Of a DNA stretch of 64,000 nucleotides, positions 10,710 to 23,219 are shown in pieces. The position numbers and the translations under genes were made by a program. Position 1 is the stretch's first letter; each line of letters opens with the position of its first letter. The DNA lies in NCBI GenBank assembly GCA_949283955.1, contig CASDUP010000031.1:62001-126000 (forward strand). The letters are read 5' to 3'. The notes below the pieces were generated by a model. The model did no database searches and was not told where the DNA came from. It saw nothing but the letters and a program-made list of their open reading frames with translations. Source of the DNA: an uncultured Verrucomicrobiota bacterium. Its GTDB lineage: Bacteria; Verrucomicrobiota; Verrucomicrobiia; Opitutales; Intestinicryptomonadaceae.

Positions 10710-12437
10710 TTAGAAATCTCCCCTTTCTCCGCCGTCCGTTATGCGCTCCACGACCTCTTCGTCCTCCCTGTCCGAGAAGGATTTTTCTGTATCCCTATTG
10801 CTTATGAGAACGTCTATATCTGACAGTATCTTGCTCCTGTCGGAAGCAAAAATAAAACGATCGCTGACCAAATTCTTCTTAGCCGAATCTATGAGCGTCC
10901 TCGGAGGACGGCGCATCTGAAGAAGCTTCAGTATGTGCTTGTCCAAGTTGGTGGAGTTTCCCACCTTTATTTCCATCTGAACCAACCTGGTCAGAGCAAG
11001 CTGGTGGTTCGGATACCTGTCCACGGCGCTTTCCAACAGCTTGTGCGAATGCACTGTGCCTCCAAGCAAATCCAAACGACGAGCCGTAGCCACCAAAATC
11101 TTCGGAGTTACCATCGACCTTTTCAGTATGTCCCCGAGCAAAATGTCGGTCATATTTACGTTCCCCAACGCGTAATACGAAACCGCCCTCAAACACGAAA
11201 ATACGTCTTCGTACCTCTTCACCCACGCCGGACTCTCTTGCATTATGTTTTCGGCAAACGCGACAGACTCCTTGTACATTCCGTTCCCTATCATCGTCTC
11301 CATCAAAAGCAGGCAATAAGGCGCTATCGAAAAATTCCTTTGTATGGCAATATCGTACACCCTGCGCATCAACTCTATATTGCCCGACTCCGCCGCAAAA
11401 TTTCCCAATAGAAGCATCGCTTTGTGGTTGGAACCATACTGCTCTATAAAGTCATTTACCCCCTGCTTTATTTCAGCACCCCTACCCGCTTTGTATAGAA
11501 GCTCAAACCTCTCGACCCTCTGGTCCACTGAAAACGGATCCTCGACCGCTCGAAGAGTTGAATATTTCATGGCAGTGTCGTAATCCTTCAAAGCGGCATA
11601 GTAATTCGCCAAAAGAGCATAAAGCGGAGCTCTTTTTGTAGAATATTTCAAATTCTCCAGGATTATCTTTATCGCCTCCTTCGAGTTCCCCTGCTCCCAT
11701 TCATTCCTAGAAAGACGGATGACACCGGGAAGACTCCTGTCTATCCCGTGCTTGACAAGAATTTCTTTAGAAAGCTCGTAATTTCCGTGCAAAGCGTAAA
11801 CCGTCGACGCCGCAACCGAAAGATACGCTATAACCTCTTCATTCTTTACCTCGTTGCGCTCAAGAAGAGTCGTGGCAACTTTTATCAACTTCTTGTCAGC
11901 ACTCTGATCTATCAGCAAACGAAGATAAAGCCTCATGAATTTTAGATCGTCCTTGCCGTACAAAATCCCTCGCTCAAGAGTATCTATCGCAATGTCCGGC
12001 CGGCGGCGTATAGCCAGGTCGAACTCCGCAAGCATCTGCCTTCCTTCGACGTTCTTCGGAGACCTTCCAACCCCCTTCGCAAGACTCATATATGCCTCCG
12101 ACCACTTGCGCTCGGATATGAGCTTCTTGGCCTCTTCTATATCTGCATTTCCCTGCCTAACTCTAACTTCTGACATATTTACAGGGTAAATCAGCGCATC
12201 CCAAAAATTAAGATTCTCGTAATCCCTGTAATATTTAAAGAAACAAAATATGAAAATACTCTTCGCTAACCAAAGAATCAAAAGTAAAACCGCAACAACG
12301 ACGGCTACCCTCCCATAGAGGACTTCGAAAGACCAAGTGCCGTTGGGATTTCTCTTCCTGCGCACCATTCCCAATAAGGCGGAATAAGAGTTGGGTTTGC
12401 CTGGGCGAAGTGTTTTTTTCGAGTTGGGAGATTTCAT
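10710..12437 (-). CDS. TPR-repeat protein with single N-terminal membrane anchor
   Basis: 575 residues from MKSPNSKK; the frame is open 60 bases further upstream, but the extra residues are Cys/His-rich and unlike a leader. A basic cytoplasmic start is followed by one membrane span (about 43-67), and the rest is almost entirely helical, with repeating A-x-x-L-x-x-G patterns (AIDTLERGILYGKDDLKFMRL, ALLANYYAALKDYDTAMKY, AMLLLGNFAAESGNIELM). This places a long TPR solenoid in the periplasm, probably as a scaffold for a complex. The C-terminal 40 residues are acidic and charged. Function unknown; no neighbour gives a clue. Confidence 0.65.
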   Translation of the reverse strand: MKSPNSKKTLRPGKPNSYSALLGMVRRKRNPNGTWSFEVLYGRVAVVVAVLLLILWLAKSIFIFCFFKYYRDYENLNFWDALIYPVNMSEVRVRQGNADIEEAKKLISERKWSEAYMSLAKGVGRSPKNVEGRQMLAEFDLAIRRRPDIAIDTLERGILYGKDDLKFMRLYLRLLIDQSADKKLIKVATTLLERNEVKNEEVIAYLSVAASTVYALHGNYELSKEILVKHGIDRSLPGVIRLSRNEWEQGNSKEAIKIILENLKYSTKRAPLYALLANYYAALKDYDTAMKYSTLRAVEDPFSVDQRVERFELLYKAGRGAEIKQGVNDFIEQYGSNHKAMLLLGNFAAESGNIELMRRVYDIAIQRNFSIAPYCLLLMETMIGNGMYKESVAFAENIMQESPAWVKRYEDVFSCLRAVSYYALGNVNMTDILLGDILKRSMVTPKILVATARRLDLLGGTVHSHKLLESAVDRYPNHQLALTRLVQMEIKVGNSTNLDKHILKLLQMRRPPRTLIDSAKKNLVSDRFIFASDRSKILSDIDVLISNRDTEKSFSDREDEEVVERITDGGERGDF

Positions 12438-12610
12438 CGATCGCGATTCAATACGGTGTTGTTTGCAGTAGAGTAGAGTATGACAGGCAATACACAAGAA
12501 AAAACATTTCTTACTTGATTTTAAGCAGAACTTCCGCGAGCATTTAAGTTCCAGTTTTTTGTCCTAAAAAAAAGAATGAAAAAAATGGCAAAATAAAAAG
12601 ATATATTTTC

Positions 12611-12718: not shown

Positions 12719-13873
12719 ATGAAAAAACTAATCACCATATATGCGCTGATTGCAGCCTCTGCGGCGGTTAATGCCGCGCCTCTCGTAACAATAGGGGACG
12801 AGCTTGACCTCTTCTTTACCGGAGCGGTAACAGGATCGTGGGAAAGCAACATTACATACACGCAAGCTCCAAATAAAAAAGACGACTACTCACTGAAGAT
12901 TCGTCTCGGAGCGGAAGCGGATTATGGACGCAACAACAAATTTAAATTCAATGTCAAATTCTACGAGGATCTGACGCGTTATTCGCAGTATTCGCAGTTT
13001 AACTCGAATCTGGCGAACGTGTTTGTGAACGCCTCTTATACAGAGACGGTATTCAAAGTTGCAGCAAACTTCTCGTATCGCCAGCTCAAACAGAACAGCT
13101 CCGAAATAATCCAGCAGGCGGACTTGGTCAGGCGCGATCAATATAATTCTGGCATTATTGGCACTTATGACTTCTCCGATAAGCTTTTTGGCGAGGTTGG
13201 ATTCAACTGGTTCTGGGAAAAGTTCATTGGCGAATGGGCCGACATCTATTCTAATCAGATGATCTATACAGTCCCTGTCAGCTTGTTCTACAACGTCACG
13301 GAAAAGATCGCAGCCGGCCTCACTTACCAGTATCGCTATACGACGTTTGACGGTGGCATGACGTATGCAACGAGCGGTTATGGCAACAGCCGTAATGACC
13401 ATTTCGGCGGCGTGACGATTCGCGGAATACTTCTTCCGAAACTGTCCGCCACGGCCAACGCCGGTGTGGTGTATCGTTCGGTCGACAATTTTGAGAATGA
13501 GACTACCTTCTCCTTCTCCGCAACTTTGGGATATGAGTTGACAGAAAAGGTTGGTCTTTTTGCCAGAGGCTTCCGCGACTATGGATCCGGAGCACAGAGG
13601 CAATCGCAAACCCTCACGGGTGGCGAATTCGGAGTCAACTATGACTTCTCCGACTACATTTCCTCCGTTGCGAGCTTCACATACCAGAATGTAGATTACA
13701 ACTGGTATGACCGCAATGACGACGAGTACATCTTCAGGGCGGGACTTATCTACAAGCCCAACAAGTTCATTCAAATTTCGGCAAATTACCGCTACTTGGA
13801 TAATGCGTCCAATTTGAGAACCGGTTGCTACAACGACCACCTCGTTGATCTCACATTCTCCGTGAGGTACTAA
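12719..13873 (+). CDS. Outer-membrane beta-barrel protein
   Basis: 384 residues. A signal peptide ends at VNAAP (about 1-20). The rest alternates polar and hydrophobic residues and is rich in Tyr, Phe, Asn and Gly, with short turns (DFSDKLFGEVGFNWFW, FSDYISSVASFTYQNVDYNWY) and a terminal aromatic strand VDLTFSVRY ending in Tyr, as expected for BamA-dependent insertion. About 16 strands can be counted. The pattern is closest to the putative beta-barrel porin-2 group. Codon use differs from the neighbours: Ile is mostly ATT/ATC and Arg often CGC/CGT, against ATA and AGA/AGG elsewhere. This fits very high expression or recent acquisition. It stands alone between its own promoter and terminator. 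Confidence 0.8.
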   Translation: MKKLITIYALIAASAAVNAAPLVTIGDELDLFFTGAVTGSWESNITYTQAPNKKDDYSLKIRLGAEADYGRNNKFKFNVKFYEDLTRYSQYSQFNSNLANVFVNASYTETVFKVAANFSYRQLKQNSSEIIQQADLVRRDQYNSGIIGTYDFSDKLFGEVGFNWFWEKFIGEWADIYSNQMIYTVPVSLFYNVTEKIAAGLTYQYRYTTFDGGMTYATSGYGNSRNDHFGGVTIRGILLPKLSATANAGVVYRSVDNFENETTFSFSATLGYELTEKVGLFARGFRDYGSGAQRQSQTLTGGEFGVNYDFSDYISSVASFTYQNVDYNWYDRNDDEYIFRAGLIYKPNKFIQISANYRYLDNASNLRTGCYNDHLVDLTFSVRY

Positions 13874-13997: not shown

Positions 13998-14774
13998 TCA
14001 GTCTTCGACAAAAGCTGACGCCGGAACGTCGAAAGGTGGAACTATTTCTATTCTCGATAAAAAATTCTCAGGCACAACTTTTAAAAGATCTTCTATATGC
14101 CCCACTTCGTTGCATTCCTTCGATACGTGTGCCAGATAGATCTTTCGCGGAAAATTATCTACAAGCCTCATTATTAAATCTATTGCCGCAGCGTTCGAAA
14201 GATGCCCGTGGGTTCCATTTATTCTTTGTTTAAGGATAAACGATCTGTCAGATTTTTCCAACAACTTGGGACAATAATTGCTTTCCAAAACGAGAATATC
14301 CGCCTCCTTTGCTCGTTCAAACGCGAGAGAAGTGACCTTTCCCAAATCGGTCATCCAAACGAGGGTTCTCCCCTCGAAAGAAAAGGAATATCCCACCGTA
14401 TCGGCCGCATCGTGTGGCAAAGAGAAAGGATTTACCCTTATTCCGCAAAACTCGAACGGCAATCCGTTCTCAAAAATTTTCCAGTTGAGAGACGACGCCT
14501 TTGGATTTTTTCCGACTATGCAATCGCGCGTTATGGAATTGGCAAACACGCTAACGTTTCGAAATCGAGCAAAAGAGGGAAGAGCCTTGCAGTGGTCGGA
14601 GTGGTCGTGTGTAACAAAAATTCCCGACACATCGCCCAATCCGAGACCGAGTCCGTTCAGATAGGACTCCAATTTGCGCACTCCCACGCCGGCGTCTATG
14701 AGAAAATTTCTTCCTCCCACGCGCAAGATGGAACAATTTCCGCTGCTTGAACTGGCGATTATCTGGAAAAACAT
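13998..14774 (-). CDS. YycJ/WalJ-like metallo-beta-lactamase-fold hydrolase
   Basis: 258 residues from MFFQIIASSSSGN. The N-terminal SSSSGNCSILRVGGRNFLIDAG is characteristic of the YycJ subgroup, and the metal site THDHSDH is intact, followed by Asp in LVWMTDLGKV and a His in the YLAHVSKECN segment near the C-terminus. Relatives are 5'-3' exonuclease-like proteins that link cell division and DNA replication in Firmicutes; the role here is unproven. The open frame extends 12 codons upstream, but only this start matches family length. The end of the GH32-like gene is 45 bp upstream. Confidence 0.88.
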   Translation of the reverse strand: MFFQIIASSSSGNCSILRVGGRNFLIDAGVGVRKLESYLNGLGLGLGDVSGIFVTHDHSDHCKALPSFARFRNVSVFANSITRDCIVGKNPKASSLNWKIFENGLPFEFCGIRVNPFSLPHDAADTVGYSFSFEGRTLVWMTDLGKVTSLAFERAKEADILVLESNYCPKLLEKSDRSFILKQRINGTHGHLSNAAAIDLIMRLVDNFPRKIYLAHVSKECNEVGHIEDLLKVVPENFLSRIEIVPPFDVPASAFVED

Positions 14775-14819
14775 GGAGGGGATCTTCTCTTTATAGAAAA
14801 TCCTTCGCAATCTGAATTT

Positions 14820-16592
14820 TTAATTTTTTACAGAGCTTTTGAAGAAAGGTTCCTTCAAAATTTCTCTTCGCATAAGATAATAGACCTCCGCCTGCCCCCC
14901 GCTGCCGCCAAGCCTGACAATCGGCTGTGGGGTCATTATACTTTCGCCTATAGCAAGCAGAAGATCTCCAGATCCGAATAAAAATTCGAACGCGTTGTTG
15001 TCGATAAACGCCTCGAATTTGAAGAATCCAGCCGACAAGGGCTTTTGTCTTCTGCCGAAGTATATTTCGTTTCCGAGCCTATAAATATCTACTTTTCCCG
15101 AGGCGTAATCATAATTAAAGTCAATGGTTCCGGCGGACATGTAAAAGTCCACGGAATTGCCGGTAGCCACTTCGCCCGAAATGAGCACATTATTTACGCT
15201 AACGGAAGGAATCGAATAATTGTTGGAGGAATACCCGAGTTTTTCCATACCGATGATTCCAAGCGCATTTGTTCCAAGCTTGGTATGGGACAAAATTTCC
15301 GGAGGTATTTGGGCTCTCAGCTGAAATTCTCCGCACGCGACCTTTACGAGCTGAAGATCCCACGGGAGGCTCATTCCCTGCGAGTAGGCCGTTTCAGATT
15401 CGCTTATGCTGAAATTTGGCACCAAAAGCAGCATTGAAAACATATTTCTGCCATCTTTTAGTCCCTGCCAAAGTTTCGTTGTTCTTCCGTCGCCTATGCT
15501 CAAGCGTCTGGCAAATTTTGATTCTTGGGAAAAGGACTTTCCGTCGAAATTCCCGACCAAAAAGTTCGTCTGGCCGTCGAAAGCTACCCAACGCTCTCCC
15601 AGCAAAGCTCCCGTAACGGGAATTCTAACAAGGTTGGGATAGGCTCCAAGACCCGCTATCTCGCAAACTCTTTCCCATTTTTTTAAATCTTTCGAAGTGT
15701 AAACAGCGGCGATTTTACCTTCGTTTGCCCCTCCTTTGAGGGAAGTTTCCCTTCGCACGATTATCCACGACTTGAGAGAGTCATCGTAGGACAAGGTCGG
15801 TTCTTCGCCTTCGGATTTTATAAGCTCCGAATCGTTTACAGCTTCCAAAAAAACTTTCTTTTTGGAATCAAAAACGTACAGAACGTCGCCCCTGCCCTCT
15901 ATCGAAACGACCGCAAGCAATCTGTTGTTTTTATCCCTAAACAAACCGCTCCTATTTTCCGAGTCCAAAAAGATAGATCCCGGCCGAGGGAGAATCCATT
16001 TTCCGTCTTTAAATTTCGGAGTCATAACGGGAGGTTCGTAGGTCCAATTTATCAGGTCTGAACTCACCGCATGCCCCCATTCAAAGTATCCCGTGTTAAA
16101 GACGCTAAAAGGATTGTGCTCGTAAAACGCGTGCCACTTCCCCCCATATTTTGCTAGGCCTATGACAGCGCCCATTCTTCCGAAGTTGGGCGTTAGGTGG
16201 AACTGGGATCTTCCGCGAAATTTCGAGTAGTCCGCGTAGGCCATTTCGTCGCTTTGCCTTATCTTTGGATCCAAACCTTTGACGGATCTCGTATATTCGA
16301 ACGACAGGTTCTGGCCTTTAAACCGGGATATGTCGATACTGGCATACCAATCGGGAGTTCCCAGAGTGAGCATTCCCACGTACTCTAATATCGGCTTCCC
16401 GTCGCTTCCCAATATGGAAAATTTCGAATTTTCCTCTCCGGCTTTCATGGGAACGAGAAGAAAATTTTTTTCCGCTTTGAGGGGCTCCCTCACGGTTTCT
16501 CTTCCTTCGGGCAAGAGAGAGGACGAATCAAGCGGAGCCGAAAATGCCGGCAACGCGAGTAGAAATGCGACGTATAATAGAAAGCGCGTCAT
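14820..16592 (-). CDS. Secreted GH32-fold protein with all three catalytic positions changed
   Basis: 590 residues from MTRFLLYV, with a signal peptide at 1-18. The frame stays open another 450 bp upstream but there lies antisense to the efflux outer-membrane gene. After a 125-residue N-terminal region the five-bladed GH32 beta-propeller is easy to follow: FHLTP, WHAFYEHNPF, YFEWGHAVSSDLINW, SIFLD, SGLF, YTSKDLKKWE, FLVGNFDGKSF and MSLPWDLQL, then a C-terminal beta-sandwich. The conserved WMNDPNG block reads GRMGAVIG (138-145; nucleophile Asp replaced by Ala142), RDP reads EEP (263-265) and ECP reads AYP (317-319). The protein is therefore probably a fructan- or sugar-binding non-enzyme. It is the last gene before the YycJ-like gene. 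Confidence 0.75.
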   Translation of the reverse strand: MTRFLLYVAFLLALPAFSAPLDSSSLLPEGRETVREPLKAEKNFLLVPMKAGEENSKFSILGSDGKPILEYVGMLTLGTPDWYASIDISRFKGQNLSFEYTRSVKGLDPKIRQSDEMAYADYSKFRGRSQFHLTPNFGRMGAVIGLAKYGGKWHAFYEHNPFSVFNTGYFEWGHAVSSDLINWTYEPPVMTPKFKDGKWILPRPGSIFLDSENRSGLFRDKNNRLLAVVSIEGRGDVLYVFDSKKKVFLEAVNDSELIKSEGEEPTLSYDDSLKSWIIVRRETSLKGGANEGKIAAVYTSKDLKKWERVCEIAGLGAYPNLVRIPVTGALLGERWVAFDGQTNFLVGNFDGKSFSQESKFARRLSIGDGRTTKLWQGLKDGRNMFSMLLLVPNFSISESETAYSQGMSLPWDLQLVKVACGEFQLRAQIPPEILSHTKLGTNALGIIGMEKLGYSSNNYSIPSVSVNNVLISGEVATGNSVDFYMSAGTIDFNYDYASGKVDIYRLGNEIYFGRRQKPLSAGFFKFEAFIDNNAFEFLFGSGDLLLAIGESIMTPQPIVRLGGSGGQAEVYYLMRREILKEPFFKSSVKN

Positions 16593-16654
16593 AATCCACT
16601 GGATTATCGAAAAAAAATCCCCTTCGTAAAACAAAAAAATTGCGCCACGCGAAC

Positions 16655-16683
16655 AAAAAACCCCTCCGATATTCGGAAGGGTT
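16655..16683 (-). terminator. Terminator of the efflux operon
   Basis: The stem AACCCtTCCGA / TCGGAgGGGTT (one mismatch) is followed on the minus strand by six Ts. It lies 14 bp past the oprM-like stop. Confidence 0.8.
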
Positions 16684-16696
16684 AAAATGGGAAAAA

Positions 16697-18181
16697 CTAA
16701 GGAGCGATTTCCGGTATGATGTCGTCTTGCCCGTAGTCTGAAGGCAATCGATAATTTTCCTCGGAAACGCTCCAACCGCCGCCCAGCCCGACTATTAAAG
16801 ACACGCACGCGCGGAAGCGCGCCCCCTTTAGTTGAAGGAGCAAGCGTTCGTTGGCAAGAGCCACGCTTTGCGCGTCGCTGACTGAAAAGTAGTCGACGAA
16901 ACCCAGGTCGTACTGTTTTTGGGTGAGGTTCATCACGGAAACGGAAGCCTTCACCACCGCGGCACGGCGCTCGTACTCTATTTTCAAGTGGTTCACGTTT
17001 GCTAAGGCGTCCTCCACTTCTCTTATGGCAGAGAGAACAGTCCACTTGTAGTTTTCGAGCGTTTCTGCGTGGGCCGCCAAAGCTATGCGTTTTTGTGCCA
17101 TGTTTCTTCCCGCCTCAAAAATGGGTATGTATATCTGCGGACTTATTCCCCACGCAAAGCTGCTCGAATTTATGAGCTTGTCTATTTTTTGAGCGGACAA
17201 ATCCGTGTTTGCGGTCAGGGATACCGTAGGGAAGAACGCCGCTTGCGCCGCGCCTATTTTGGCGTTAGCCGCGCAAACTTCGCGTTCGGCCGCCGCTATG
17301 TCCGGCCTTCTTTCGAGCAATTCCGAGGGAACTGCCGCGGGAAGTGAAGGCAAATCCTCCCCCAGCTCCGCGTCTTTCAGAACGAGAGACGAAGGCGTTG
17401 TCCCCATAAGGAGGGCGAGGTAATTTCTCGAAAGAACCAGAGATCTCTCTACCTCCGCAAGCTGTGCGGCCGCCTCTGCCTCCTGCTGTATGGCTCGCTG
17501 CAAGTCTATGTCGCTCGAATAGTCGAATTTTACCCTGCTGCGAACCAACTCTGTCTGCTCTTTTCTAACGTCCAAAGTTCTCTTTAAGAGATTCCGCTCG
17601 GAGTAGAGCTGGCGAATTTGGAAATAGGTATTGGCCACGTCCGCCTGAAGCAGAAGCATCAAGTTTTGGTAGGCGTCGAGCTGCGCCTGGGCGTTTGCAA
17701 CATCGGACTTAAGCAGGCTCCTTATTCTTCCGAACAGGTCCAAATCCCACGTTATTCCGAAGCCCGCCAACCACGTGTCGTACTGGCCGTAATACGGCTC
17801 GGCATTTTTCGACTGCGAAGTTATCGAATAAGATCCGTGTCCGGTCAGGCTCGGATAAAGTTCGCTCTTGTCCATAAGGGCCGCTTCCCTCGCCTGCTCC
17901 ACTCGGTAAAACGCCGCCTCAAGATTCGGATTGTCCTCTTTGCACTTTTCGAGAAGAGTTCGAAGTTCGGAATCCTCGAACACCGACCACCAATCCCCCT
18001 TTGGAAGCGACGATGCGGGGCAGGCAGATTTCCACAATCCCGCGTCGTGAAAAAATTTATCCTCCTTTAAATCGGGAATTTTTAGTGACAGGGAGGGATC
18101 TGTGTAATCCGGCCCCACGGTGCATCCGGCAAGGGCTGCTGCGAATATTCCCGCATTTACAATCTTGCTAAAAATTTTCAT
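16697..18181 (-). CDS. RND efflux outer-membrane lipoprotein (OprM/NodT family)
   Basis: 494 residues. The lipobox ALAGC gives acylation at Cys19, followed by the family's TVGPDY. Two OEP repeats follow (about 60-265 and 275-465), with the usual YPSLTGHGSYS, DLDLFGRIRS, RPDIAAAEREV and KRIALAAHAETLENYKWTVLSAIREVEDAL segments, which form the trimeric TolC-like channel. It starts 7 bp after the RND pump gene, so the operon delivers a complete tripartite pump. The C-terminus ends with an acidic Pro-containing tail (DDIIPEIAP). Confidence 0.95.
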   Translation of the reverse strand: MKIFSKIVNAGIFAAALAGCTVGPDYTDPSLSLKIPDLKEDKFFHDAGLWKSACPASSLPKGDWWSVFEDSELRTLLEKCKEDNPNLEAAFYRVEQAREAALMDKSELYPSLTGHGSYSITSQSKNAEPYYGQYDTWLAGFGITWDLDLFGRIRSLLKSDVANAQAQLDAYQNLMLLLQADVANTYFQIRQLYSERNLLKRTLDVRKEQTELVRSRVKFDYSSDIDLQRAIQQEAEAAAQLAEVERSLVLSRNYLALLMGTTPSSLVLKDAELGEDLPSLPAAVPSELLERRPDIAAAEREVCAANAKIGAAQAAFFPTVSLTANTDLSAQKIDKLINSSSFAWGISPQIYIPIFEAGRNMAQKRIALAAHAETLENYKWTVLSAIREVEDALANVNHLKIEYERRAAVVKASVSVMNLTQKQYDLGFVDYFSVSDAQSVALANERLLLQLKGARFRACVSLIVGLGGGWSVSEENYRLPSDYGQDDIIPEIAP

Positions 18182-18188
18182 ACAAATC

Positions 18189-21100
18189 CTATTTGTCGGA
18201 AACTGTCTTAGGTTTAAAATTTTTCCTGATTACGTAGAAAAACACGGGAGTAAAGAGCAATCCGAGTATCGTCACTCCCAACATTCCGAAAAGAACGGAG
18301 GTTCCGATGCTCTGTCTAAGCTCAGATCCGGAAGACTCTCCGAATGCAAGCGGAACGACTCCCAATATGAATGCAAACGAGGTCATAAGTATAGGGCGCA
18401 ATCTGTTTTTCGAAGCTTGCGAGACCGCAAAAACCGCGTCTTGGCCCTTTTCCTGTCGCTGTTTTGCAAACTCCACTATCAAGATGGCGTTCTTGCATGC
18501 AAGACCTATGAGAACAACGAATCCTATTTGAACCATCAGGTTGTTGTCCAATCCCCGCATGTCCACTCCTAGAAGAGCGAAGAGCAAAACCAACGGAACT
18601 ATAAGAATCACCGCCAAAGGCAGCTTCCAACTTTCGTAAAGAGCGGCAAGAACTAGGAACACGAAAAGAACGCAAAGGGAGAATATCGCTATCGAGGTGT
18701 TTCCTATGCGCTTTTCCTGAAACGCCAGGTCAGTCCAATCGATTCCCATTCCGTCCGGCAGAACTTCATCGGCAATTTGCTCCACAACCTTCATCGCCTC
18801 TCCCGTGCTATACCCGGGAGCCAAGTTCCCGAGAATCTCGGCTGCCGGATACAAGTTGTATCTGGTAATCGTGGACGGCCCGACAGTTCGGCGAACGTCC
18901 GCAACCGAACCAAGCGGAACATTCACTCCGTTTATATTCGGAACCTTCAAATTATATATGTCGGAAATTTCGCTTCTTTGCTTGCTTTCGGCTTGGGCCA
19001 CAACCCTATATACTCGGTTGAGAATGTTGAAGTCGTTTACGTAAATGGAACCCATGTAGAGCTGCATCGTGTCGAATATCGACTGAATCGGAACGTTCAA
19101 CTTTTGGGCTCTTTCGCGGTCTATATCGAGATAGAGCTGCGGCGTCGATATTCTGAAGGTAGTAAACGCCAAAGAGATTTCGGGATGTTCGAGCATTGCC
19201 TTCCTGGCTATCTCCTGGGTGTATTTCTCTACGTCTCCCACTCCCCTTCCCATCTTGTCTTGGACCATCAGCTTAAAGTCGCCTCCCATTCCGATTCCGT
19301 TGACAGCGGGAGGTGTGAGTACATACACGGAGGCTTCAGGAATCGCCTCGGAGAGGGTTTTGGAAGCGTCCGCTATGATGCTGTCCAAGCTCCTGCCACG
19401 GGATATTCTCTCCTCTTTCGGATCGAGCTTTATAAACATAGCTCCGCTATTCGAAATCTTCGCGAAGGTCGCCCCGCTAAGCCCCACTATGGACATGCAG
19501 CTCGTCACTCCGTCTATTTCCCTGACTATTTTCTCGGCCCTCAGCATCGCCCTGTTTGTATGTTCCAGGGAGACGCCTTCGGGAAGCTGAATGGTCGCAA
19601 AAATATACCCCGTGTCCTGTTTGGGAATGAATCCCTTGGGAACGTTCTTGAACACATATCCCGTAAACACTAGAAGCGCCGCATAAAGCAACAACATCAA
19701 AGGCGAGAATTTGACAATCCTTCCCACCATGTTTCCGTACTTTTCAGAAATCCAGTTGAAAGATATGTTGAACCCCTTGAAAAACCAGCCCAAAAGGAAA
19801 TTCCAAATTTTTGTAAACCAGTCCTCCTTGCCCTCCTCGCGTATCATTATGGCGCAGAGAGCCGGAGTGAGAGTTAGCGAAACCACTCCGGACAAAATGG
19901 TCGAAGCCGCTATAGTAAGCGCGAACTGCCTGTAAAACTGCCCGGATATTCCCTCGATGAACGCGGTGGGAATAAACACGGAACTCAATACCAAAACTAT
20001 TGCTATGAGAGCCCCCTGCACCTGCGTCATGGCTTTTTTAGTGGCTTCCCGAACGGAAAGCCCGTCGCGCATATTTCGCTCGACGTTCTCCACCACTACA
20101 ATCGCGTCGTCGACCACTATTCCTATGGCCAGCACCAATCCGAACAGAGACAAGTTGTTTATTGAGAATCCAAACACCTCCATGAAGAAAAATGTTCCTA
20201 TCAAAGAGACGGGAATAGCAAAAAGCGGTATTACAGCAGCCCTCCAATTTTGCAGGAACAGCATCATGACAAACACCACGAGAATTATGGCGTCGAAAAT
20301 CGTCTCGTACACGGCGTCGACCGAAGTCCTGATATACTCGGTATTGTCGAGCGCGATGAAGTAATCCATTCCCTCCGGGAACTTCTGTTTCATCTCTTCG
20401 AGAGCCGCCCTTATCCTAACTGCGGTATCCAACCCGTTGCTTCCAGGAAGCTGGTATATGGCAAGCGTCACGGCTCCGTTGCCGTTTAGATAGGATTCGT
20501 CGCTGTAGGAGTAGGAGCCCAGCTCTATCCTTGCCACATCGGAGAGTTTGACAGTTTTCCCGTCGGGAGTGTACTTTATTACTATGTCCCCGAATTGCTC
20601 TGGGGTGGAAAGCCTTCCCTGTGTGTTGATAATAAGCTCGTGCGCCACATTGGGATTGGCAAGCGGAGGCTGGTTCAGCTTGCCGGCGGCAACCTGCTGG
20701 TTTTGTTCCCTGAGGGCGGACAAAACTTGAGCCGCTGTCATGTTGACGTGCGCGAGCCTGTCGGGATCGAGCCATATCCTCATACTGTACTCGCGGGGAC
20801 CGTAAATTTGCACATCGCTGACCCCTGCAATTCGAGCAAGAGGGTCTATCATCTGAGTTATGGCGTAATTTGTCAGGTATAGTTTGTCCCTGGTCCCGTT
20901 TGGAGAAAACAGAGAAACGGAAAGAAGCATGTCGGGAGAGCGTTTTTTTACGGTCACACCAATGCTCCTAACGTCCGACGGCAACCTCGATTCTGCCATC
21001 GCGACCCGGTTTTGCACCTGAACCTGCGCCACGTCGATGTCCGTTCCCAATTCAAAACTCACGTTTATCATAACGGAACCCGCCGAGTTGCAGGTGCTCG

Positions 21101-21341
21101 ACATGTACATCATGTTCTCAACCCCGTTCACCTCTTGCTCGATGGGGGCAGCCACGGTATCGACCAATATTTCGGGAGAGGCTCCCGGATATTCGGCTAT
21201 TACCACGACCGTAGGGGGAACCACGTCGGGGTACTGGGTCACGGGAAGAGACACATACCCGACAATTCCGAGTATGGTAATTAAAAGCGATATGACAGTG
21301 GCAAAAATAGGCCTGTCTATGAAAAAATGCGAAAACTTCAT
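18189..21341 (-). CDS. RND multidrug efflux pump, AcrB/MexB (HAE-1) type
   Basis: 1050 residues, the family norm. The N-terminus MKFSHFFIDRPIFATVISL is the HAE-1 signature. Twelve membrane spans are arranged as 1 + 5 and 1 + 5 around two large periplasmic loops. TM4 holds GIVVDDAIVVVENVERN with the two proton-relay aspartates, and TM10 has the LIGLACKNAILIVEFA segment with the matching Lys. The substrate spectrum cannot be read from the sequence. It is third of four genes in a tetR-adaptor-pump-channel operon; the start is 46 bp after the adaptor stop. Confidence 0.97.
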   Translation of the reverse strand: MKFSHFFIDRPIFATVISLLITILGIVGYVSLPVTQYPDVVPPTVVVIAEYPGASPEILVDTVAAPIEQEVNGVENMMYMSSTCNSAGSVMINVSFELGTDIDVAQVQVQNRVAMAESRLPSDVRSIGVTVKKRSPDMLLSVSLFSPNGTRDKLYLTNYAITQMIDPLARIAGVSDVQIYGPREYSMRIWLDPDRLAHVNMTAAQVLSALREQNQQVAAGKLNQPPLANPNVAHELIINTQGRLSTPEQFGDIVIKYTPDGKTVKLSDVARIELGSYSYSDESYLNGNGAVTLAIYQLPGSNGLDTAVRIRAALEEMKQKFPEGMDYFIALDNTEYIRTSVDAVYETIFDAIILVVFVMMLFLQNWRAAVIPLFAIPVSLIGTFFFMEVFGFSINNLSLFGLVLAIGIVVDDAIVVVENVERNMRDGLSVREATKKAMTQVQGALIAIVLVLSSVFIPTAFIEGISGQFYRQFALTIAASTILSGVVSLTLTPALCAIMIREEGKEDWFTKIWNFLLGWFFKGFNISFNWISEKYGNMVGRIVKFSPLMLLLYAALLVFTGYVFKNVPKGFIPKQDTGYIFATIQLPEGVSLEHTNRAMLRAEKIVREIDGVTSCMSIVGLSGATFAKISNSGAMFIKLDPKEERISRGRSLDSIIADASKTLSEAIPEASVYVLTPPAVNGIGMGGDFKLMVQDKMGRGVGDVEKYTQEIARKAMLEHPEISLAFTTFRISTPQLYLDIDRERAQKLNVPIQSIFDTMQLYMGSIYVNDFNILNRVYRVVAQAESKQRSEISDIYNLKVPNINGVNVPLGSVADVRRTVGPSTITRYNLYPAAEILGNLAPGYSTGEAMKVVEQIADEVLPDGMGIDWTDLAFQEKRIGNTSIAIFSLCVLFVFLVLAALYESWKLPLAVILIVPLVLLFALLGVDMRGLDNNLMVQIGFVVLIGLACKNAILIVEFAKQRQEKGQDAVFAVSQASKNRLRPILMTSFAFILGVVPLAFGESSGSELRQSIGTSVLFGMLGVTILGLLFTPVFFYVIRKNFKPKTVSDK

Positions 21342-21387
21342 CTCAATTTAAAATGTTGAAGGTTTTCATGAGCAAACGCTCCGCGGG

Positions 21388-22530
21388 CTACTTTGACTTC
21401 GCTTCGGCGGCTGGAACGGGATTGACAATCCTTCCGGGATTAGCGTTGTGGAGACCCACAACCACTATCCTGTCGCCTTCGGAAACTCCCTCCTCTACTA
21501 TTCTGTATTTTCCGAGAAGCCTTCCGGGCTTTATCATTCTGTACTCGACCTTGTTGTCCTTCCCCACCACCAAAACGTATCTGTTGACGAGATCAGTCCC
21601 GATGACATCTTCAGGAACAAGCAAAACCTCACGGGGAGACGAAGCCTTCACCCTTATCTTGGCAAACATTCCCGCCGCAAGCTTCCCCTCCGAATTGTCT
21701 ATGTCGGCCCTCATGGTAAGGCTGGAGGTTTCGCGCCCTATTCGGTTGTCGTAATAGTTTACCACCCCGTTTATCTTGGTCTCAGAATCCCCAAGCAGCA
21801 TTATTTGGGCTTCGGGACCGGTTCCCTTGGCTATATTTATCCTCTTGAACAAACCGTCTTTTTCATACCTGAGAAAATCCCTCTCGCTTATCTCGAAATA
21901 CGCCTGGACGACATCGTCCTTGACTATCGCCGTAAGGAGGGTCGTGTTGGCGGCAACTAGATTGCCCGCGTCGACCAAAGCCTCGCTAACACGCCCGGAT
22001 ATGGGAGCCTTCACATGCGTAAACTCCAAATTTAGTTCGGCGTCCCTCAAATTCGCCTGGGCGTTTAGAAGAGCAGCCTGCGCTCCCAACAATTCGGCGT
22101 TGCGGGTCTCGAACACCTCTTTGGAGACAACCTTCGCGGCAAGCATCTCCCTTCCGCGCTCAAGGTTGTTCTTCGCCAAAACCACCCTCGACTCGACCTC
22201 CTTAACCTGAGCCTTCGCCGCTTGAACCTGCGCCTCAAACGGCCTCGGATCTATCACAAAAAGAAGATCTCCTTCCTTTACCTTTTCGCCCTCTGTAAAA
22301 TTAACCTTCTCTAGATACCCTCCGACTCTCGCCCGGACTTCCACATAGCGAACCGCGTCTATTCTCGCCACGTATTCGTCCCAAAGCTCCACACTCTTCT
22401 TTATGGGATTCGCCACTTGTACTTTAGGCAAATTAACCTTCCCATCGCCTTTTTTGTCGGAACATCCTACCAGCGCAATCCCCGCGGCAAACGCCGCAAC
22501 AATCATTATTCTTACCTTGTATCCTGCCAT
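21388..22530 (-). CDS. RND efflux periplasmic adaptor (AcrA/MexA family)
   Basis: 380 residues with the lipobox ALVGC (Cys23). Regions in order: beta-barrel strand, lipoyl half VEVRARVGGYLEKVNFTEGEKVKEGDLLFVID, alpha-hairpin (about 95-165, Ala/Glu/Gln-rich coiled coil), second lipoyl half THVKAPISGRVSEALVDAGNLV, beta-barrel FEISERDFLRY and the membrane-proximal domain ending near residue 370. It links the pump to the outer-membrane channel. The tetR-like gene ends 23 bp upstream. Confidence 0.95.
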   Translation of the reverse strand: MAGYKVRIMIVAAFAAGIALVGCSDKKGDGKVNLPKVQVANPIKKSVELWDEYVARIDAVRYVEVRARVGGYLEKVNFTEGEKVKEGDLLFVIDPRPFEAQVQAAKAQVKEVESRVVLAKNNLERGREMLAAKVVSKEVFETRNAELLGAQAALLNAQANLRDAELNLEFTHVKAPISGRVSEALVDAGNLVAANTTLLTAIVKDDVVQAYFEISERDFLRYEKDGLFKRINIAKGTGPEAQIMLLGDSETKINGVVNYYDNRIGRETSSLTMRADIDNSEGKLAAGMFAKIRVKASSPREVLLVPEDVIGTDLVNRYVLVVGKDNKVEYRMIKPGRLLGKYRIVEEGVSEGDRIVVVGLHNANPGRIVNPVPAAEAKSK

Positions 22531-22553
22531 ATTATTTTCCTCTAAATCTCCGT

Positions 22554-23219
22554 TTATCTCTTAAATATCTTGTCCAACATGAACAAAAAAGATCTCCTCA
22601 CGCTCTCCACTTCCCTCTCGCCAAAGCCCTTCCATCCGTTATTCCTCATGAAGCCCTCCCGCGCCGAAACAAAAACATGTATCTGGCCCATTATCATTTC
22701 CGCCACTATCTTCGCCTTTACACCGTCCAACTTTCCGCAAGAGGCCACGCCCACCATGTTCGCCATCACCTCGTTAATCCTCTTGAACGCCTTGAAAAAT
22801 AAGTCGAACGCTGCCGAAGGATACATCTCCTCCCTCGAAATCAATAGTATCACGTCCCTAAAAATAGCCTTGTCGATATTCTTGTCGCAGGAAATCCTGC
22901 TCATGTTGTAGTCGAAGATGAACTGCTTGGCCGCGGAGGCGTTTCTAGTTTTCAAAATATTTTCCGCCCTCTTGAAATACGGCTCCGAATAAATCAATAT
23001 GTACTCCGATATTTCCCTCACAAGCTCCATGTAAAGCTCGTTTTTCCCTCCGAAATGATAGCTTATCGCGGCGTGGTTAACCCCCGCCCTCTTTGCTATT
23101 TCCCTCGTGCGGGCGCCGTCGAGCGAACGCGAGGCAAACTCCCCCAAAGCCGCGATTATTATGCGAACCTTGGCGTCGTTCCCACCTTTTAGATACTCGA
23201 CTATATAGTTAGTCCTCAT
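22554..23219 (-). CDS. TetR-family repressor, CecR/YbiH-like, of the efflux operon
   Basis: 221 residues. The N-terminal helix-turn-helix is typical TetR: IIAALGEFASRSLDGARTREIAKRAGVNHAAISYHFGGKNELYMELV (about 17-63). The C-terminal part has the pattern of the CecR-like ligand domain (DUF1956), including SREEMYPSAAFDLFFK and the RINEVMANMVG helix. It is the first gene of the operon, so it probably represses itself and the pump through the palindrome 10 bp upstream of its start. An effector cannot be predicted. Confidence 0.9.
   Translation of the reverse strand: MRTNYIVEYLKGGNDAKVRIIIAALGEFASRSLDGARTREIAKRAGVNHAAISYHFGGKNELYMELVREISEYILIYSEPYFKRAENILKTRNASAAKQFIFDYNMSRISCDKNIDKAIFRDVILLISREEMYPSAAFDLFFKAFKRINEVMANMVGVASCGKLDGVKAKIVAEMIMGQIHVFVSAREGFMRNNGWKGFGEREVESVRRSFLFMLDKIFKR

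Follow-up and report, generated by a model that had tools for sequence, protein, structure and literature searches.

GH32 proteins that no longer act as enzymes but are retained have been described from plants, as defective invertases. In these proteins the changes are confined to an Asp/Lys couple and Trp residues next to the catalytic triad, which itself is never affected (PMC3713406). A regulatory role has been reported for one of them, tobacco Nin88 (PMC3713406). Levan is still bound by BT1760 E221A, a GH32 mutant without catalytic activity (PMC6560043). On the bacterial side, a limited search of part of the literature found no GH32 pseudoenzyme. Whereas the retained pseudoenzymes described from plants thus have an intact triad, here we describe a genus-wide bacterial clade in which the whole active site appears to have been dismantled and the fold kept.

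The window, by which we mean the whole stretch of 64,000 nucleotides that was analysed, carries one member of this clade, a pseudo-GH32 gene that we call GH32p (Table 1). Its frame is open throughout, from the ATG at 16592 to the stop at 14820 on the minus strand, which confirms the intact frame over 590 codons given in the initial annotation; the four landmarks listed there (YEHNPF, EWGHAVSSDL, GNFDGKSF, and LPWDL) are likewise all found. The GH32 fold proposed at that stage is borne out by several kinds of comparison. Pfam PF00251 (GH32N) matches GH32p with an E value of 1.3e-16, a single-sequence phmmer search of the PDB reaches exo-inulinase 1y4w at 1e-12, and a profile of the GH32p orthologues matches solved GH32 enzymes at 5e-37, while profile-profile comparison with intact Opitutales GH32s gives 3e-120 over 547 columns. 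An AlphaFold (AF2) model of intermediate confidence (five input sequences; mean pLDDT, 67; pTM, 0.67) superposes on 1w2t with a Z score of 32.3 and an rmsd of 3.0 over 399 residues, and the best structural matches listed for it are GH32 enzymes only. By sequence and by fold, propeller and C-terminal beta-sandwich alike, GH32p is a member of the GH32 family. The DUF4980 profile matches 6 of 12 orthologues (best E value, 2e-5); the window copy alone gives no match, though it aligns over the region. A hydrophobic N-terminal signal is present in the orthologues too.

Table 1. Features of the pseudo-GH32 gene and its conserved neighbours in the window
Feature	Positions	Strand	Basis or remark
GH32p (pseudo-GH32 gene)	14820..16592	minus	590 aa; predicted exported
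Sec-type signal peptide, residues 1-18 (MTRFLLYVAFLLALPAFSA, followed by PLD), without lipobox Cys	16539..16592	minus	Read from sequence
Putative N-terminal DUF4980-type beta domain, ~residues 33-125	16218..16496	minus	Orthologue DUF4980 matches; strands in model
Five-bladed propeller (GH32N), ~residues 126-400	15393..16217	minus	Pfam match, model, fold matches
C-terminal beta-sandwich, ~residues 401-578	14859..15392	minus	Model and fold matches; Pfam GH32C match in one orthologue
WMNDPNG to RMGAVIG (R139-M-G-A142-V-I-G145; nucleophile D to A142)	16158..16178	minus	Alignment, codon coordinates checked
RDP to EEP (E263-E264-P; transition-state stabiliser D to E264)	15798..15806	minus	Alignment, codon coordinates checked
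ECP to AYP (A317-Y-P; acid/base E to A317)	15636..15644	minus	Alignment, codon coordinates checked
Subfamily-specific C-terminal loop, residues 457-467 (here NYSIPSVSVNN region)	15192..15224	minus	Alignment
MBL-fold hydrolase (Lactamase_B_2, WalJ/YycJ-like), downstream of GH32p	13998..14810	minus	Profile match; coupled closely in orthologous loci
BBP2_2 outer-membrane barrel, conserved neighbour	12719..13873	plus	Domain and locus comparison
TPR protein, conserved neighbour	10710..12497	minus	Domain and locus comparison

The catalytic Asp/Asp/Glu of active GH32 enzymes is absent from GH32p. All three motifs are indeed replaced, as first noticed in the window copy, with A142, E264, and A317 standing in place of D, D, and E. 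Misalignment of the motifs is ruled out, given that the intact proteins L003, L004, and L029, among others, hold WMNDPNG, RDP, and ECP in the same columns and that the profile-profile comparison agrees. The triad is broken in all 11 clade members, its columns reading AEA, EAN, ESP, DGP, SSG, AWS, NNE, SWN, ESY, GNP, and DYP; at most one of the three acids is retained per species, and no combination is common to two species. The Asn of WMND has become Gly in 9 of the 11. In two of the pseudo-GH32s (L016 of G011 and L017 of G005), the RDP-equivalent region is followed by ~50 to 100 inserted residues of low complexity, which bring the length to ~740 to 758 aa.

The loss extends to the surrounding pocket. 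At 12 positions, which we take from general knowledge of the family and from the intact alignment to line the fructose pocket in GH32 structures, the 11 pseudo-GH32s retain 12 of 132 cells (9%) by sequence alignment, versus 490 of 693 cells (71%) at 63 other GH32-conserved sites (Fisher p 6e-42, indicative only, as the cells are related sequences). The window protein keeps a single one of the 12, W172 (-1 pocket residues: W, N, Q, W, S, R, C, Y, and W). Judging from the alignment, the cleft is the eroded part of these proteins and the core residues stay, and GH32p is presumably inactive as a glycosidase. Homologues sharing Ala/Glu/Ala around a preserved cleft, which the initial annotation would have counted as support, are not what we find: the replacements differ by species and the pocket is selectively lost. 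This bears directly on the suggestion, made at the same time, that the protein captures fructan in a retained GH32 cleft. The conserved fold would allow it, as would the levan binding of the dead BT1760 mutant, but the pocket Trp, Asn, Gln, Arg, Ser, Cys, and Tyr have gone along with the acids, and differently by species. In addition, none of the neighbouring genes tested, whether around the window copy or around its G001 and G007 orthologues, was recognised as a fructan gene, and we consider fructan binding in the cleft unlikely. Acquisition of a different active site on the GH32 scaffold, in other words a new enzyme, seems highly improbable. The clade does have invariant polar residues (S89, K92, R128, H132, R426, D531, and E536), but each is either shared with intact GH32 or located away from the pocket, and the old pocket holds no invariant acid or nucleophile. 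Nor does any clade-conserved acid re-occupy it in the alignment of the 11 pseudo-GH32s, those of the window protein (E158 for Q, and E263 and E264 for R-D) being conserved in none of the orthologues.

This Opitutales genus is represented here by 14 genomes, sampled as MAGs with one genome per species. Thirteen were searchable; G010 was left out, as it gave no match for GH32p, MBL, ClpB, RpoB, or RpoC despite a listed completeness of 95%. A broken-triad orthologue is present in 11 of the 13. In 12, a GH32 homologue (11 broken, 1 intact) lies beside the MBL-hydrolase gene or on a broken contig compatible with that position, and the pseudo-GH32 gene is directly upstream of the same MBL-hydrolase gene in 10 of its 11 carriers, the eleventh contig ending too early to tell. 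The intact gene at this locus is L004 of G001. G006 has the MBL gene without GH32p and an intact GH32 (L003) elsewhere in the genome; between its MBL gene and the outer-membrane barrel lies a 332-aa ORF with a signal-like N terminus (L084, 2458-3456). The order GH32p-MBL-outer-membrane barrel-TPR is common to six of the longer loci, and MBL loci fetched from other Opitutia and from more distant bacteria have no adjoining GH32. Directly upstream in the window (16697-23219) we recognise by eye an RND efflux operon (NodT-like, AcrB-like, AcrA-like, and TetR-like), which is not conserved in orthologous loci. A hairpin-plus-T stretch near 16650-16685 apparently closes this operon, and GH32p is therefore probably transcribed from its own promoter.

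Across 372 Opitutales genomes searched, the pseudo-GH32 clade is confined to the genus. Relatives outside it whose motifs were read are all intact except five distant GH32-like proteins from other Opitutales families (L020, L021, L023, L024, and L026), which keep the first-motif Asp (NDPNG or similar) and have no Glu in the ECP column (CAVP, LVCP, GACP, DMCP); they represent either another subfamily or a local misalignment. Genomic contigs scanned with P0001 and viral contigs scanned with an N-terminal fragment of L003 yielded no relatives. One genome of the same order, G040, has ~15 GH32 matches in 2.1 Mb, a large expansion.

The gene tree unites the 11 pseudo sequences in a single clade (support, 100/99, or 100/97 after removal of the catalytic columns and their surroundings), and their nearest relatives are the intact L003, L004, and L029. 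Independent loss in each species is countered by this tree and by an AU test that rejects grouping of the window and G013 copies with the intact G001 gene (p 0.002). A quick-search species tree from RpoB, RpoC, ClpB, MBL, barrel, and TPR sequences places G001 with G013 and the window genome, G000 (SH-aLRT 97); on the same species data, a single clade of all pseudo carriers is not rejected (AU p 0.14). Because the pseudo sequences form one clade and the latter test spares a single clade of carriers, one loss is the simplest account, with gene replacement in G001, or ancestral coexistence (paralogy) of active and inactive copies, as a possible alternative. G000 has the smallest assembly of the genus (1.65 Mb) and by far the longest branch of the species tree, which suggests that its evolution has sped up or that its genome has been reduced.

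Among pseudo pairs whose dS could be measured, the two closest gave dN/dS values of 0.17 and 0.19, which are approximate at a dS of ~2 or more; the MBL gene in these genomes gave ~0.1. Identity by codon position follows the order 2 > 1 > 3 in every pair. Purifying selection thus acts on the GH32p protein, if somewhat less tightly than on that of its MBL neighbour. In neutral simulations, 0.1 substitutions per site left the frame intact in 0.2% of runs, and 0.3 or more left it intact in 0 of 500. Since all frames are open and dN/dS is low, the gene shows no decay, and these observations together with the simulation rule out a decaying pseudogene. The earlier verdict of a non-enzyme rather than a decaying gene therefore stands in its first part, for what is now an 11-member monophyletic family at a conserved locus; the fructan binding attached to it is not supported, given the loss of the pocket.

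Selection on the frame might also be explained by its position. From the GH32p stop to the MBL start there are -1 to +10 nt in 10 other loci, including that of the intact G001 gene; in the window the first in-frame MBL start (TTG) lies 9 nt past the stop and an ATG at 45 nt. Such spacing, and the faster evolution of the GH32p protein, would suit a cis-acting leader whose frame is kept for translational coupling to the downstream MBL gene and whose product matters little. A leader, however, needs neither the fold residues and domain architecture that are kept here nor selection against amino-acid change, and the MBL gene of G006 does without one, all of which makes this explanation improbable, although coupling alone could account for part of the frame conservation.

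We favour, with a probability of about two in three, the view that GH32p is an exported non-catalytic GH32 scaffold kept for a binding or structural role outside the old pocket. A DUF4980-GH32 fructanase of the genus would have lost its triad and the surrounding fructose pocket, most simply once, and the folded scaffold would then have persisted at a single locus, its gene preceding the MBL-hydrolase gene in an operon of two. The present role of the scaffold would make no use of the old pocket; most likely the protein has a binding or structural function in the periplasm or at the cell surface, and probably it does a different job from fructan cutting. In 8 of the 11 pseudo-carrying genomes an intact GH32 is absent (no other match covers the start of the GH32N profile, the site of WMNDPNG). 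Given this and the lack of fructan genes among the tested neighbours, a fructan pathway does not account for the retention of GH32p, and nor does a partner enzyme. A regulator or partner of an active GH32, comparable to Nin88 for cell-wall invertases (PMC3713406), would be another reading; pseudo and intact GH32 do occur together in G000, G008, and G013, but with most carriers devoid of any such partner this is very unlikely as a general role. No signal peptide is evident in the MBL protein, which is presumably cytosolic, whereas GH32p is predicted to be exported; direct contact is therefore unlikely, and the link between the two is probably one of expression.

Two candidate surfaces for the scaffold may be the N-terminal DUF4980-type domain and the C-terminal loop around residues 457-467. 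In most orthologues the loop reads NxFx[LIMV]P[DN]AxGN; the motif N-x4-[LIMV]-P-[DN]-A-x-G-N, from which some members deviate slightly, is common to the pseudo clade and the intact L003 and L004 and absent from the other aligned GH32s. The motif outlived the loss of catalysis, and the loop is the best candidate for a functional surface. Two observations count against a retained scaffold: the motif is at its weakest in the window copy (SNNYSIPSVSVNN), and identity between the window protein and its orthologues is no more than 26-36%, which leaves much of the surface free to change. More speculatively, a glycosidase scaffold might have been exapted genus-wide into a non-sugar envelope protein that uses the C-terminal loop and N-terminal domain and whose synthesis is translationally coupled to a WalJ-like MBL-fold hydrolase, a fuller scenario that we regard as doubtful.

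In comparison with known systems, GH32p resembles GH32 levanases and inulinases (DUF4980-GH32N-GH32C) in fold, export signal, and probable type of N-terminal domain, and retains their motifs RPxFH, WGHAxSxDLxxW, DxxNxSG, GDFDG, and LPW, but it has neither the D/D/E triad nor the -1 pocket. It is a member of the GH32 family in sequence and fold that, as far as sequence can tell, lacks the defining features of a GH32 enzyme. This carries a warning for annotation: Pfam and CAZy-style searches label the pseudo-GH32s as GH32, so that fructan use would be ascribed to 11 genomes even though 8 of them lack an intact GH32. Unlike the surface glycan-binding lipoproteins of polysaccharide utilisation loci, GH32p has no Cys after its signal peptide, and its neighbours are unlike those of such a locus (the MBL hydrolase, BBP2_2 barrel, and TPR genes tested, and the RND efflux operon recognised by eye). 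The closest intact sisters, L004 and L003 of the same genus, share the C-terminal loop motif and differ in their complete WMNDPNG, RDP, and ECP, L004 doing so at the same MBL-adjacent locus. These sisters are near enough for the loss to be traced, which makes the clade a clean system in which to ask why a carbohydrate-active enzyme should be retained once it is dead. Like the plant defective invertases such as Nin88, the clade consists of GH32 proteins that have presumably lost activity and yet are kept; in the plant type, however, the triad is intact and the sucrose-stabilising Asp/Lys couple is lost, whereas in GH32p the triad itself has gone together with the pocket.
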